Below are positions 2,947-21,012 of a stretch of DNA of 22,532 bases, one piece after another. Source of the DNA: a virus; IMG/VR virus record IMGVR_UViG_3300025087_000311, positions 1 to 22,532 of that record; one strand, given 5' to 3'. The notes under the pieces were generated by a model, which saw only the letters and a program-made list of their open reading frames with translations, did not search any database and had not been told where the DNA came from. Each line of letters starts with the position of its first letter. Positions within the stretch are counted from its first letter, which is position 1. A program made the translations under genes and the position numbers.

Positions 2947-2960
2947 TTAAAATTAGAAAT

Positions 2961-3036
2961 AAGGGGGGAACCAAATTGTAGTCATAATAGTCTAGTGATT
3001 ATTGTGATCGCGAAGGGGTTCCCCCCTTTTGCGATC
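2961..3036 (+). promoter_or_regulatory. RNA element with mutually exclusive stems before the portal gene
   Basis: AAGGGGGGAACC (2961-2972) is a perfect reverse complement of GGTTCCCCCCTT (3017-3028), giving a 12-bp stem with a 44-base loop. A competing local hairpin uses GATCGC (3006-3011) with GCGATC (3031-3036) and AAGGGG (3013-3018) with CCCCTT (3023-3028). The long stem and the local G/C stem cannot both form. The long stem plus GATCGC/GCGATC would make an H-type pseudoknot. The element ends 26 bases before the portal ATG. No U-run follows, so it is not a classical terminator. Confidence 0.6.
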
Positions 3037-3062: not shown

Positions 3063-5510
3063 ATGCGTGAAGATAAAATCACAACTAAATGGGATGCTTC
3101 TATCTGGAAGGATTATCGAGGTAAAAAGTGGAATAATCGTGCTGAATATGACGATGTTCAGAATGTTACAGATAGGTTTCACGAGATGGAAGAGGGTCGC
3201 AGGACTTCTTGTCCTTGGGCTTCTGTAGAAGATGCCGTTTCTAATACTACGGCTACAAGTGATGGTGAAGAGAAGACAAAAACTGGCAGTGACTGGGTCA
3301 AAGCCTGGAATGATGATATTAAAAGGTGGTCGATGTGGCACGAATATTTAAGGAATCAAAGTAATTTAAAGTCTCCGATCAGTTGGTCCCCTGTTGAAGC
3401 TGGCATGTCTGAATTTGTGAGTGGTGAGAAATTACCTATACTTTCAGGTGACGAGAAGGACGAGCAGAATATCCAGATCCTGCAACATATTTACGAATCA
3501 TTGCACGAGAATGGAGATTTTGATGTTGTTAATAACTCGACTTTCCACGAGAGTCTGATTTGTGGTAGTGCCTGGACGTATATCCCCTGGATAGAACAAA
3601 CTGAAGAAAAAGAATTAATATTAAATCCTAAATTAGCAAGAGAAGAAGCCAAAGAACTTGCGGAGAGCAAAGAGGATAAAGACAAAAAAAGAGTTACAGA
3701 GTTGAAAGATAAGGGAAAACCGCTTACAAAAAAGGTCATGGTAACAAAGTATGATAATCCAGCGATAATACATCCATCATTATTTGAGATTTATATAGAT
3801 CCCGATGCTAGGGTATTAAGGGGGCCAGCTTACGAAGCAAAAGATATTTGCTGGGAACAGCTCCCAAGCCTAGACCAATTCCAGAATGAGTTTGAGAATA
3901 GTAAAGATCCGTATATTATCAAGGAGAATGTGAAGAAAGTTCAGAATGTCCAAGATACTATAACAAGCTATACAACTTCACAGCCGTTCTTCCAGGTTCC
4001 AGCAACGATTTCTAAAAACAAGGTTCGGTTGCTCAGATACTGGAATAAAATCACGGATAAATACATGATAATAGCGAACGATATTCTAATAAGGAATGGC
4101 CCGATGCCCTACAATCATATGGGACGCAAGGAATTGCCATTTGCTTTGCATAAAGCGTTTGACTGGCCACATCAATTATATGGAATGGGATTTCCGAGGA
4201 TGTTAGAAAGCACCCAAGCAGAAGACGAAACCCTAAGAAACATGGCACTCAATCAATTGAAATTGATCTTGAATCCACCTATAGTTTACAACAGAGAGTT
4301 TGAAGATGATATTGATGAGGGTTGGGAAGTAGTAATGCCTGGTCAAAAGTTCGGAATTAGCGGGAAAGTAGATGAAAGCAATATCAGATGGCTAAAGGGT
4401 TCTGAATACAGACCGGATTATTATCAGATGCGGAATCAGCTTCAAGAAGATGCCGTAAAAATATCAGGGGTTAATCCGTTAGCTTTCGCAGCTCCAAAGC
4501 CTGGCGAACCTGTCAGAAATAATATGATGTCTCTAGAAAGTACGTTAAAAATGTTTACGAGAATCATTAATAATTGGGCAGCTGGTGAGAAGGATGTCGT
4601 AAGGCAGGTTTTGTGGCTTGTTATGGAAAGATATCCAGCAAGCAAGGTCAAAACATTGAATCTGCAAAAAATGACAGTAATGGAAAAGACTCGAAGTATC
4701 ACAACACAGGATATAGAATTAAGTTTTGACGATGTGGGCAAATTAAGAAAAGAGTTCAAACCAGGGAGGCATGATTTTGAGATAAAAGACGAATATCTTG
4801 ATATAACAAGCGATATTAATATTGAGATAGACATAGAGAGGATATTACCTATGTCAACAGCATTGAGACTGCAAAGACTTGACAAGGCCATGGCTACTCT
4901 AATACCAATATTTGGTAATCCTGCAATGTTACAAAACAGTGCAATATCTTTGATGGTCAGAGACTACGTCAAATTGAATGGTCTCGATCCTCAATATCTG
5001 GATAACTTGAAAGACGAAGATAGTGAGAACGATGTATTAGAAGCACAACAGCATAACCAGGAGATGAAAGAGGGCAATTATCCAGAAAATACAATACCAG
5101 GCAGAAGTGATGCTCATCTACTAGTACACACTCTACAAGCATTGGAATGGATCAGTGCAAGAGAGCAAATTACACAAAAAAGTAAAGGTGAAAATACTAA
5201 CACGAACGATATCCTAAAAGCAGCTGAAGAATTACAACAGATTGAACAAAGTTTGAATATTCTGGCTAAACACATGTCAACAGAACAGTTACCAGTGGAT
5301 CAGTCAGCTTCAGCGGTGGGAGGTATTGCAAGTCAAGCAGGAGCAGAAGCGGCGTCTCAGCAAGGAGCACAACCTCCGATTAACGAGGGTATGGGGGGGC
5401 AACCTCAAGGGGCAATACCCCAAGAGGCAATACCACAAGGAATAATGCAAGGAACAGGTCCAGAACAGGTTACGCCCGAAATGATGGCCACTGGTATGGG
5501 GCAAGTTTAA
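3063..5510 (+). CDS. Portal protein
   Basis: The portal forms the ring at one capsid vertex through which DNA enters and leaves, and it docks the terminase and then the adaptor. The protein is about 815 residues from ATG 3063, closer to the large portals of P22-like phages than to the 400-500-residue portals of many siphoviruses. Portal-like segments include ELPFALHKAFDWPHQLYGMG and ESTQAEDETLRNMALNQLK (about 353-400) and a later helix-rich part (about 485-540) with NNMMSLESTLKMF. The last 75 residues or so are Gln/Gly/Pro/Ala-rich with AIPQE-type repeats encoded by the 15-bp repeat also seen in intergenic DNA. A TTG start at 3054 is possible, but the ATG is preferred. No Shine-Dalgarno is visible. 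Confidence 0.85.
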   Translation: MREDKITTKWDASIWKDYRGKKWNNRAEYDDVQNVTDRFHEMEEGRRTSCPWASVEDAVSNTTATSDGEEKTKTGSDWVKAWNDDIKRWSMWHEYLRNQSNLKSPISWSPVEAGMSEFVSGEKLPILSGDEKDEQNIQILQHIYESLHENGDFDVVNNSTFHESLICGSAWTYIPWIEQTEEKELILNPKLAREEAKELAESKEDKDKKRVTELKDKGKPLTKKVMVTKYDNPAIIHPSLFEIYIDPDARVLRGPAYEAKDICWEQLPSLDQFQNEFENSKDPYIIKENVKKVQNVQDTITSYTTSQPFFQVPATISKNKVRLLRYWNKITDKYMIIANDILIRNGPMPYNHMGRKELPFALHKAFDWPHQLYGMGFPRMLESTQAEDETLRNMALNQLKLILNPPIVYNREFEDDIDEGWEVVMPGQKFGISGKVDESNIRWLKGSEYRPDYYQMRNQLQEDAVKISGVNPLAFAAPKPGEPVRNNMMSLESTLKMFTRIINNWAAGEKDVVRQVLWLVMERYPASKVKTLNLQKMTVMEKTRSITTQDIELSFDDVGKLRKEFKPGRHDFEIKDEYLDITSDINIEIDIERILPMSTALRLQRLDKAMATLIPIFGNPAMLQNSAISLMVRDYVKLNGLDPQYLDNLKDEDSENDVLEAQQHNQEMKEGNYPENTIPGRSDAHLLVHTLQALEWISAREQITQKSKGENTNTNDILKAAEELQQIEQSLNILAKHMSTEQLPVDQSASAVGGIASQAGAEAASQQGAQPPINEGMGGQPQGAIPQEAIPQGIMQGTGPEQVTPEMMATGMGQV
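5394..5440 (+). repeat. 15-bp hairpin repeat, coding copy in the portal gene
   Basis: Near the portal 3' end, units of a 13-base hairpin plus AA occur in tandem: GGGGCAATACCCC (5409-5421), then GAGGCAATACCAC (5424-5436), with a degenerate unit before them. In frame they encode GAIPQEAIPQG. Related units occur outside genes at 6051-6095 and 7854-7883. Confidence 0.6.
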
Positions 5511-5867: not shown

Positions 5868-6051
5868 TTTCATAGCTGATTTTGCTATAAAGTATGGATT
5901 TATGCCAATACCAGTAGTCAATCCTAGTGTGAGATTTGAGCCGATTAGTAAAGAAATACTAGATCATCTTAAAAAGACGGTTGATCAAAGAAAAAAGGAT
6001 ACTATTGTAGTGGCAAAAAATCTACCGACAGAACCTATTTTGGGCAGATAG
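5797..6051 (+). CDS. Small unknown protein overlapping the previous gene
   Basis: An 84-residue protein if it starts at ATG 5797. An ATG at 5758 would add 13 residues but overlaps the earlier gene by 110 bases. From 5797 the overlap is 71 bases. The body (ASAEKYLAMDQEYSDFIADF, KYGFMPIPVV) looks like a real soluble protein with a helix followed by a Pro-rich segment, and the C-terminus is basic then neutral. The start follows a purine run (AAAAAGAAAAAAG) rather than a Shine-Dalgarno. It may be translationally coupled to the upstream gene, or be its C-terminal half separated by a frameshift. The stop TAG abuts the hairpin repeats at 6051. Function unknown; position suggests head assembly. Confidence 0.6.
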   Translation: MTTKDQKNPASAEKYLAMDQEYSDFIADFAIKYGFMPIPVVNPSVRFEPISKEILDHLKKTVDQRKKDTIVVAKNLPTEPILGR

Positions 6052-6098
6052 GGGCGATGCCTCAAGAGGTGATGCCTCAAGAGGCGATGCCTCAATAA
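6051..6098 (+). repeat. Three tandem 15-bp hairpin repeats before the scaffold gene
   Basis: Three 13-base hairpins separated by AA: GGGGCGATGCCTC (6051-6063), GAGGTGATGCCTC (6066-6078) and GAGGCGATGCCTC (6081-6093). Each has a GAT loop closed by G-C-rich arms. The middle unit carries GAGGTGAT, a Shine-Dalgarno-like string. The block is also a 13-codon reading frame (ATG 6057 to TAA 6098) encoding MPQEVMPQEAMPQ, the same peptide motif as the portal C-terminus. The last hairpin ends 36 bases before the scaffold ATG. Confidence 0.7.
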
Positions 6099-7173: not shown

Positions 7174-7839
7174 ATGGCAATAAATAACTATGGTGCAATG
7201 CACATGCCAAGATTAGTCAGAGCAGCCACAGGAAGGGCAGAAGACAGATCCACCTGGAAAATCCCTGGTGAAGATAGCACAAAGTTGTATATGGGGCAAT
7301 TCGTTGCTCTTAGTGATGCGACTAACGGCAAAGAATTTGGTATAACAACTCTAGCTGATGATGATTATATTTTCGGTTTTGTTGTTGGGTTTACAAGGCT
7401 TGGTTCATTAGTTCCAATTCAAGATGACCCACTAAAGGCTGGAACTGTTACTGATGCAACAGGCGAATTACCAATGGCATACACGTTTGCTTCAACTAAT
7501 GACGAGAGTAACACAACTAGTGCGAAAATGGAGCTTGCAGAGATAATGCCAATTCAGACTGGTGATATTATTGAAGTTTCTCTATGGGGTGCTTCTACTA
7601 TCTCGGTAATTAGGGGTACAACTACAGCAGCAGGTACTACAGCTAGTTCCGATAATATTGGAGTAAGTATGGCAACTGATGCTACTTATCCATGGGCGTT
7701 GACAGAATCAACGGCAGTTGTAGCACAGGCGAATATGGACTTTATGACAGTTTCTTTAGACGGCTATAAGCCAGAGAATACTCGTAGAGTTTATGTGTCA
7801 CCTACCAGATGTTTCTCAAGCGCTGGAGCAGCTAACTAG
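7174..7839 (+). CDS. Candidate capsid decoration / head protein
   Basis: A 221-residue protein placed between scaffold and major capsid protein, the usual location of decoration (head-stabilising) proteins. The N-terminus (MAINNYGAMHMPRLVRAATG) is short and basic. The rest looks beta-rich, with many Thr/Gly/Ala turns, for example residues around 55-80 (LADDDYIFGFVVGFTRLGS) and the Thr-rich stretch near 150-160. There is no signal peptide or membrane segment. I infer a role on the capsid surface from gene order and beta-rich composition only; a minor head protein is the alternative. It starts at ATG 7174 after a U-rich leader with no Shine-Dalgarno and ends at TAG. Confidence 0.5.
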   Translation: MAINNYGAMHMPRLVRAATGRAEDRSTWKIPGEDSTKLYMGQFVALSDATNGKEFGITTLADDDYIFGFVVGFTRLGSLVPIQDDPLKAGTVTDATGELPMAYTFASTNDESNTTSAKMELAEIMPIQTGDIIEVSLWGASTISVIRGTTTAAGTTASSDNIGVSMATDATYPWALTESTAVVAQANMDFMTVSLDGYKPENTRRVYVSPTRCFSSAGAAN

Positions 7840-7844
7840 TAGCT

Positions 7845-7901
7845 ATGATCCAGGAGGTGATACCTCAAGAGGCGATACCTCAAATTGATTTTAATTTTTA
7901 G
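7845..7901 (+). other. 18-codon mini-ORF in the capsid gene leader
   Basis: ATG 7845 opens a frame encoding MIQEVIPQEAIPQIDFNF and stopping at TAG 7899-7901, nine bases before the capsid ATG. It spans the hairpin repeats and repeats the IPQE motif of the portal C-terminus. If translated, ribosomes ending here could reinitiate at the capsid gene. It may equally be only a by-product of the RNA repeat. No Shine-Dalgarno is placed for this ATG. Confidence 0.3.
7854..7885 (+). repeat. Two tandem 15-bp hairpin repeats before the capsid gene
   Basis: GAGGTGATACCTC (7854-7866) forms a perfect 5-bp stem with a GAT loop. GAGGCGATACCTC (7869-7881) forms a 4-bp stem with a C-A mismatch at the loop. AA separates them. 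AGGAGGTGAT at 7852-7861 is fully complementary to the common 3' end of 16S rRNA but lies about 50 bases before the capsid ATG and is buried in the first hairpin. Confidence 0.65.
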
Positions 7902-8930: not shown

Positions 8931-8955
8931 TTGATCTTTAACAATAAACTTTTAT

Positions 8956-9022
8956 TACACCTGGATACTTCGAGTTTTTCGAGAGATTTAAAGAAGTATC
9001 TAGAGTGCCAACTCTGGGTGTA
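8956..9022 (+). ncRNA. Three-way-junction RNA element after the capsid gene
   Basis: Three stems meet with no unpaired base at the junction. P1 pairs 8956-8962 with 9016-9022 (six Watson-Crick pairs and one G-U). P2 pairs 8964-8971 (GATACTTC) perfectly with 8993-9000 (GAAGTATC), extended by a G-U at 8963/9001, with a 21-base loop. P3 pairs AGAGT (9002-9006) with ACTCT (9011-9015) around a GCCA loop. A U-rich run follows P1 (9024-9035). It lies 24 bases before ATG 9047. It could be a processing or stability element, a terminator of unusual shape, or an unknown structured RNA. Confidence 0.65.
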
Positions 9023-9046
9023 GTTTTATTTTTTAACATAAAAGAA

Positions 9047-10036
9047 ATGGCAACAAATTTCAAAGATGGAGTGTTCAGCATGGGTGTCCCTGTGAATGGA
9101 TTATTTACTCAAGGACGATCTTATTTTGTCGCTCCAAGGACAGGTGCTGATGGTAACTCTGGGAGAACTATTAGTAAGCCCCTCAAAACATTAACAAAAG
9201 CACTTGCATTGGCAAGGGCTAATAGTGGGGACACTGTTTATTTACTTGCAGAGTCAAACTCAGCAAGTTCAACAACCACCTATTTATCAGAAGCATTAGA
9301 TTGGAATAAGGACGGTGTACATCTAATTGGTGTAAATGCAGGATCAAGGATTGGGCAGAGATCAAGGATTGCACAACTTTCAACCGTTTTAACGATTGAA
9401 GATCTTTTCACGGTTTCAGCGGATAATTGTCTAATTGCTAATATTGAGGTATTCCAGGGAGTAGCATCAAGTACAGCAACATCACCAAGAGCGGTAGTTG
9501 TATCTGGACAAAGAAATAAACTCTATAATTGTCAATTTTCTGGCATGGGAGATACTTCAATGGATACAGCCGGAGCAAGATCACTAGCGGTGATTTACCC
9601 AGGTAGCGAGAATTATTTCAAAGATTGTTATATCGGCTTAGATACTACACTTAGAGCAACTAACGTGATTGAAGCTGAAGTTATAGGTACTGGTGCTGGC
9701 ACACGAGTAGCAAGGACGATTTTTGAAGATTGTATATTTAACACATATACATCTAGCACCACGGGTAAAATTCTTAATGTTGCTTATGGAGATAGATTTG
9801 TTCTTTTGAAGAATTGTATGCTTTGTGCTATCGAGAATATCACAAGTGCAGCAGTCCCAACGGGAGCAGTCTCTATATCCAATATGAATGGTAAAGTTTG
9901 GGCATTGGGTGGCGGTGTATTTGGACCAGCAGACTGGACAACAGCAGACGACACAAATGTTAGACTACTTACATACTCAGGCTTAGCAGCTAATGTAGTA
10001 GATCAGGGTGTTGCTAAATCAACAGACGTAGCTTAA
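9047..10036 (+). CDS. Right-handed beta-helix virion protein
   Basis: A 329-residue protein whose N-terminal part has the look of pectate-lyase-like beta-helix proteins: YFVAPRTGADGNSGRTISKP then LKTLTKALALARANSGDTVYLL (about residues 24-70), followed by repeating short beta coils with Asn and Cys at turns (for example LIANIEVFQ, NKLYNCQFSG, RTIFEDCIF). Such parallel beta-helices form trimeric spikes or surface proteins in phages. No catalytic acidic set of a lyase or hydrolase could be identified. Placement after the capsid gene suggests a head- or tail-surface protein. A GTG at 9005 would extend the frame, but it lies inside the structured RNA, so ATG 9047 is preferred. It has no Shine-Dalgarno and ends at TAA. 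Confidence 0.7.
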   Translation: MATNFKDGVFSMGVPVNGLFTQGRSYFVAPRTGADGNSGRTISKPLKTLTKALALARANSGDTVYLLAESNSASSTTTYLSEALDWNKDGVHLIGVNAGSRIGQRSRIAQLSTVLTIEDLFTVSADNCLIANIEVFQGVASSTATSPRAVVVSGQRNKLYNCQFSGMGDTSMDTAGARSLAVIYPGSENYFKDCYIGLDTTLRATNVIEAEVIGTGAGTRVARTIFEDCIFNTYTSSTTGKILNVAYGDRFVLLKNCMLCAIENITSAAVPTGAVSISNMNGKVWALGGGVFGPADWTTADDTNVRLLTYSGLAANVVDQGVAKSTDVA

Positions 10037-10251: not shown

Positions 10252-10280
10252 AGGAGGAAGGGGCAAGTCCTCTTCCTCCT
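10252..10280 (+). promoter_or_regulatory. Strong hairpin burying AGGAGG
   Basis: AGGAGGAAGGGG (10252-10263) pairs with CCTCTTCCTCCT (10269-10280): eleven Watson-Crick pairs and one G-U, with a 5-base CAAGT loop. No U-run follows on either strand, so it is not a standard terminator. AGGAGG is fully paired in the stem. The hairpin ends 32 bases before ATG 10313, the same layout as other leaders in this window. Confidence 0.7.
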
Positions 10281-20736: not shown

Positions 20737-21012
20737 ATGACATTAGAAGAATTAAAAGAACAATACAAGATTTTGTCGGCTAAACTTGACATTCTAACAG
20801 GGAAAGAAAAGTCCGAGCTAGAGGGCTTGATCGTGGATATAGATAAGAAAATCAAAAACCATCCTGATTATCTCTGGATACAGGAGTATGAACATCAACA
20901 AAAAAATAAATTTTTAAACAAAATCCGTGTCAGAATACACAATACAAAACAAAAGCTGGGTAATTGGATCGGACAGTGCAAGCGCTACATTGACAGCAAG
21001 TTTCGCAGATAA
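20737..21012 (+). CDS. Small helical protein
   Basis: A 91-residue, highly charged protein predicted mostly helical (LEELKEQYKILSAKLDILTG, KSELEGLIVDIDKKIKNH). The C-terminal 30 residues are basic (RVRIHNTKQKLGNWIGQCKR). It starts at ATG 20737, four bases after the previous stop, and ends at TAA 21012. The last 86 bases overlap the next gene in another frame. A small coiled-coil chaperone or connector is possible. No family recognised. Confidence 0.6.
   Translation: MTLEELKEQYKILSAKLDILTGKEKSELEGLIVDIDKKIKNHPDYLWIQEYEHQQKNKFLNKIRVRIHNTKQKLGNWIGQCKRYIDSKFRR

Follow-up and report, generated by a model that had tools for sequence, protein, structure and literature searches.

Introduction

Protective structures between the cistrons of a bacterial message lead to differential decay of operon segments, which has been established for malEFG and other operons (PMC5927463). 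The intercistronic structures of malEF and menBCE are described as hairpins or REP-type structures; each is a stable fold that separates, on one transcript, an upstream gene whose product is in high demand from a downstream gene whose product is needed less (PMC5927463). In phage T7, the simple hairpin T-phi is located after gene 10, directly behind the major capsid gene and before a lower-copy structural gene (PMC5592923).

Here, we analyzed the virus record IMGVR_UViG_3300025087_000311 over its whole length of 22,532 nt (22.5 kb; hereafter the window), which carries late genes of a tailed phage. The window contains a predicted stable RNA fold with the same setting as in malEF and menBCE, although it is a phage three-way junction, known here from sequence alone. 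With T-phi it shares the position behind the major capsid gene and ahead of a lower-copy structural gene. It differs from T-phi in that the fold is branched, the U-run that follows it is generic in this phage, and no phage RNA polymerase gene was recognized in the (partial) record.

Results

The late genes of the window encode TerL, an SU10-like portal, the capsid protein, a beta-helix protein, a tail protein containing a GDSL lipase and an SU10-like adaptor, several of these matches being weak. The features of the capsid/beta-helix region are listed in Table 1. The beta-helix gene starts at ATG 9047 and not at GTG 9005, an alternative start that falls within P3; homologues match the protein read from 9047 from its first residue on. 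Almost all genes of the window were without Shine-Dalgarno (SD) sequences, and the phage host is probably of the Bacteroidota type. Bacteroidota lack SD sequences and have their starts in AU-rich, unstructured regions (PMC3155529, PMC6847099). The phage has the absence of an SD and such pre-start regions in common with them, whereas its U-rich motif at a fixed distance stands out more strongly than the A preferences reported for them.

Table 1. Features of the capsid/beta-helix region of the window.
Feature	Position	Strand	Basis
Major capsid protein gene, 339 aa	7911..8930	+	PHROG 371 major head protein, E 1.2e-5; follows scaffold-like and decoration-like ORFs
Intercistronic gap, 116 nt, contains the RNA fold	8931..9046	+	ORF list and homologue-supported start at 9047
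P1, 5' strand UACACCU	8956..8962	+	RNAfold MFE and ensemble
P2, 5' strand	8963..8971	+	RNAfold
Weak G-U rich apical stem on P2, 7 pairs	8972-8978/8983-8989	+	RNAfold
P2, 3' strand	8993..9001	+	RNAfold
P3 hairpin AGAGU-GCCA-ACUCU	9002..9015	+	RNAfold; stem 9002-9006/9011-9015
P1, 3' strand GGGUGUA	9016..9022	+	RNAfold MFE and ensemble
U-run UUUUAUUUUUUA, general pre-start motif of the phage	9024..9035	+	WAWTTTTTA distribution
Right-handed beta-helix gene (spike or fibre-like)	9047..10036	+	Homologue alignment; weak PHROG tail fibre match

DNA and protein searches of GenBank phages with the capsid and beta-helix genes gave no match, and a relative of the beta-helix protein was not found in prokaryote genomes. 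The single match to the capsid in IMG/VR (L001) arose by chance from a peptide within an unrelated ORF and is not a close capsid relative. L110 is the same virus as the window, and its record stops before the gap. TerL (861-2177) has relatives of up to 61% identity (L111-L189), but tblastn detected none of the other window genes in their contigs; judged by this gene content, mosaicism is strong, and these contigs were dropped as a source of homologous gaps.

On the coding strand, the three-way junction was both the minimum-energy and the ensemble-dominant fold. The three stems proposed in the sequence-only reading were recovered by RNAfold, with P2 one pair longer than described: it consists of 9 pairs, the additional one being G-U, while P1 has 7 pairs, the last of which is U-G. 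The junction contained zero unpaired bases, again in agreement with that reading. The 67-nt element had an MFE of -23.6 kcal/mol (z -3.9; 0/200 shuffles as good), and with 200 to 600 nt of flanking sequence the stems kept mean pair probabilities of 0.74-0.91 (P1), 0.96-0.99 (P2) and 0.74-0.95 (P3). The reverse strand folded more weakly (-17.1 kcal/mol, z -2.1), because several pairs are G-U, and this asymmetry of the predicted folds points to an RNA of the coding strand.

A search of the window against Rfam 15 returned no family at gathering score, and no description of this element was found in the open PMC literature. A sequence homologue of the RNA was searched for and none was found; therefore, there is no covariation for the window fold. 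The compact junction in a gap without coding capacity might be taken for a self-cleaving ribozyme or a ligand-binding RNA, but this is highly improbable: there is neither an unpaired junction core nor an Rfam match, and no conserved nucleotides are common to relatives. The hammerhead in particular has an unpaired conserved core at its junction; the window fold has none, as had already been pointed out.

Junctions with zero unpaired bases and all stems of at least 5 pairs arose in 6/4000 dinucleotide shuffles of the 116-nt gap. Block-shuffled windows contained on average 0.42 such junctions on each strand of 22.5 kb, and a junction of similar total stem length arose in one in 12 of them; the real window has only one, counting either strand. 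The fold thus surpasses chance for its gap but not at the scale of the whole window, and the earlier statement that it is unlikely by chance holds for the former and was overstated for the latter. That it is a chance fold in an AT-rich gap, with no function, would agree with the frequency in shuffled windows and with the lack of a sequence relative. We consider this quite unlikely, given the rarity of the fold for this gap and its location exactly where related phages show an excess of the same shape.

This excess was found in a survey of related loci. Relatives of the beta-helix protein in IMG/VR have about 35-65% identity, and the gene upstream of them often encodes a capsid protein, with no more than about 30% identity to that of the window. 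Because the capsids were too diverged for aligning the gap by sequence, the survey was done by shape, with simple ORF calling and post hoc junction definitions, on gaps that precede beta-helix genes or follow capsid genes. Three-way junctions classed as compact (no more than 3 unpaired bases, stems of at least 4 pairs) were present in 11/104 non-redundant gaps of these two kinds, a count that takes in the window itself and is not confined to loci with a verified capsid upstream. The number expected from shuffles was 0.92, or 0.99 when the strongest hairpin was kept intact and the flanks alone were shuffled. Other gaps of the same loci, used as controls, contained 0/150 (0.78 expected). The hypergeometric probability of this difference is about 4e-5, with a few of the 11 being mutually related. 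A hairpin of -8 kcal/mol or better was present in 101/118 gaps after capsid or before beta-helix genes, and in 85/150 of the control gaps.

Homologous loci that retain the genes yet lose the stems had been proposed as the observation that would speak against the element, and here the outcome was mixed; none of the loci has the two genes with close identity. Among beta-helix homologues of phages without SD sequences, those with short gaps (L009, L010, L311) had no fold, and those with gaps of >100 nt (L002, L008, L013) had a junction, three-way or nearly so, that is unrelated in sequence. The latter three and L354 have a common core, UUUWGACC-hairpin-GAGGAA-hairpin-AUAUAU within a closing stem, before the beta-helix genes of SD-less phages. 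This core has four members; a scan for its GACC..GAGGAA part added L354 only, and the remaining matches were due to chance.

The end of P1 at 9022 is followed by G and then UUUUAUUUUUU, with 10 U in 12, so that the stem is followed immediately by a U-tract. The same motif precedes most genes of the phage, with or without a hairpin; the tract thus goes with the next gene and is not specific to the hairpin. In the form WAWTTTTTA it is placed at a nearly fixed distance, 10-13 nt before most start codons, in place of an SD (for example at 5508, 6104, 7155, 7892, 9027, 10034 and 17156). Eight exact copies occur on the + strand, seven just before annotated starts and the eighth (20908) 20 nt before an ORF at 20927. 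The TAA stop of the preceding gene is often the first part of the motif, and L008 and L010 have a similar TTAATTATTAA form of it. The U-run noted in the sequence-only reading is therefore real but not specific to P1, and as one copy of a generic pre-start motif it does not qualify as a terminator tail.

These data bear on the possibility that the element is a partial intrinsic terminator (attenuator) with a branched head, at which polymerase would stop at the U-run (9024-9034) once P1 forms, resulting in fewer beta-helix transcripts. In T7, the sole phage terminator lies right after the capsid gene and is read through to genes 11 and 12 (PMC5592923), and some relatives of the window have perfect hairpins with U tails (L074, L237). 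A simple terminator scan flagged 8996-9021 of the window, but it returned 2 sites where 2.0 were expected. P1, moreover, has only its 7 pairs with a G-U end to close a 53-nt loop, and the 10 U in 12 behind it belong to the standard pre-start motif. A U tail (5 or more T in 8) followed strong hairpins in 17% of post-capsid versus 27% of control gaps. Because such tails were rare, the post-capsid folds are, as far as their sequences indicate, mostly not canonical terminators, and termination as a general rule is not supported. With this absence of U-tail enrichment, attenuation at the window junction appears somewhat unlikely.

An arm of the junction could also control translation by blocking ribosome entry at the beta-helix gene until a ribosome reaching the end of the capsid gene, or a protein, opens that arm. 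In phages with SD sequences, P3 would hold the SD in its stem or have an anti-SD loop, and in the window the P3 loop GCCA (9007-9010) would pair with UGGC (9048-9051) over the start codon. The arrangement with the SD within P3, and P1 abutting the ATG and the capsid stop, was observed in L015, L020, L022, L094, L193, L195, L200, L206, L257 and L263. P3 loops complementary to the downstream SD were observed in L017, L018, L103 and L201 (combined random-loop p about 1e-4, post hoc), and in the R1 subfamily described below a CUCC loop is conserved and is matched by GGAG. However, most loop matches were unremarkable under dinucleotide shuffling of the downstream sequence, and the L066 loop GGCCC has no complementarity. 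The match in the window is 4 bp long and could be due to chance (loop-permutation p 0.08, random-loop p 0.007), and the nested fold leaves the start free. Start regions after the survey gaps were slightly more open, not less, than with shuffled gaps (+0.025 +/- 0.008, n=112; window 0.48 vs 0.44), which does not support occlusion of the ribosome-binding site as a general rule. For the window we therefore regard translational control as doubtful; it may apply to the subset with an SD in P3 or a P3 loop complementary to the SD.

In L200, L206, L227, L235, L249 and other post-capsid gaps, the capsid stop region is complementary to the next start codon (e.g. TAATTTATC / GATAAATTATG), and the complementary stretches enclose a GC-rich hairpin, an arrangement that suggests translational coupling.

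Ten loci upstream of phage beta-helix genes form a candidate RNA family, R1: L016 (3935-3983), L062, L063, L087, L103, L282, L384, L385, L387 and L400. Four of these (L384, L385, L387, L400) were true additions from a pattern scan that also gave chance matches. The R1 core, GUGGGG-loop-CCCU-GGCUGCUCCGGCU, is enclosed by a variable P1 with compensatory changes: on alignment A6, both partners change in 7 of its pairs, and the covariation score is 0.365, versus 0.207 +/- 0.030 for shuffles and no more than 0.10 when slid. There is hardly any variation in P2 and P3, which are thus neither backed nor refuted by covariation, and the core has a competing fold in the single-sequence MFE. With the covariance model, all ten members scored 50-69 bits, L066 scored 28.6 bits and L024 was marginal. 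An Rfam search of L016, L087, L384, L385, L387 and L400 gave no match at gathering score. The ORF upstream of R1 in L387 and L400 is not a capsid gene but encodes a short zinc-binding-like or HNH-like protein; therefore, R1 travels with the beta-helix gene. The conserved CUCC loop is complementary to the downstream SD (GGAG).

The window element and R1 are alike in forming a three-way junction with a P1 and a short P3 in the gap upstream of a homologous beta-helix gene, and all R1 members, like the window gap, precede beta-helix-type genes. The conserved R1 core GUGGGG..CCCUGGCUGCUCCGGCUGC is absent from the window, which scored 0.8 bits against the R1 model with filters off and is thus not a member.

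Other gaps of the window are also folded. A very stable long hairpin with a TTTT tail is located before the portal gene (2958-3028; gap z -7.1) and is stronger than the three-way junction. Tandem 15-nt units AAGAGGYGATRCCTC form hairpins in two gaps of the head-gene cluster (6049-6095 and 7837-7883), which are 81% identical over 47 nt. A near-perfect hairpin, AGGAGGAAGGGG / TCCTCTTCCTCCT, lies between two small ORFs (10252-10280) and has no U tail.

Discussion

We tentatively propose, as a possible reading of the predicted fold, that the window junction is a branched intercistronic mRNA element that marks the capsid cistron at its 3' end, bounds or protects the message of this cistron and sets protein ratios. 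A long late transcript would be cut or degraded from its 3' part, and 3'-to-5' exonucleases would stall at the branched fold, so that the capsid segment would outlive the beta-helix segment. Being self-contained, the fold would not obstruct the access of ribosomes to the AU-rich region around the beta-helix start, and more capsid than spike protein would be made from one transcript. We infer RNA decay as the mechanism and the protein ratio as the purpose.

This reading is preferred because the fold is self-contained, lies after the gene of the most needed protein, requires no U tail and has a precedent in bacterial operons, where protective structures are likewise stable, self-contained folds between co-directional genes. 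The strong hairpins without a U tail in other long gaps of the window (10252-10280 and 6052-6092) were counted in its favor, as were the stability of the fold and, from the survey, the frequent strong hairpins, the excess of compact junctions, the rarity of U tails and the slightly more open start regions. Against it stand the lack of covariation, the frequency of such folds in shuffled whole windows and the U-run after P1, which could also end transcription. From the sequence-only reading, which had proposed a new structured RNA acting as a processing site, an exonuclease barrier or an unusual terminator, the structured RNA was retained, the first two roles fit best, and the third, which relied on the generic U-run, was weakened.

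A wider and rather improbable version of translational control would be that phages of different hosts repeatedly evolved sequence-unrelated three-way junctions in the capsid/beta-helix gap, the third arm of which contacts the ribosome entry site, i.e., the SD, or the start codon in SD-less Bacteroidota-type phages. Such junctions would be a shape-conserved, sequence-free device that sets the capsid-to-spike ratio by translation.

Per virion, phages need hundreds of capsid proteins and few spikes, which are often made from one transcript. The R1 subfamily is a testable candidate for a new RNA family. A recurrent RNA shape in the capsid/spike gap with unrelated sequences would show selection on shape, and it would give a simple handle on how protein ratios are set in uncultivated phages, including those without SD sequences.
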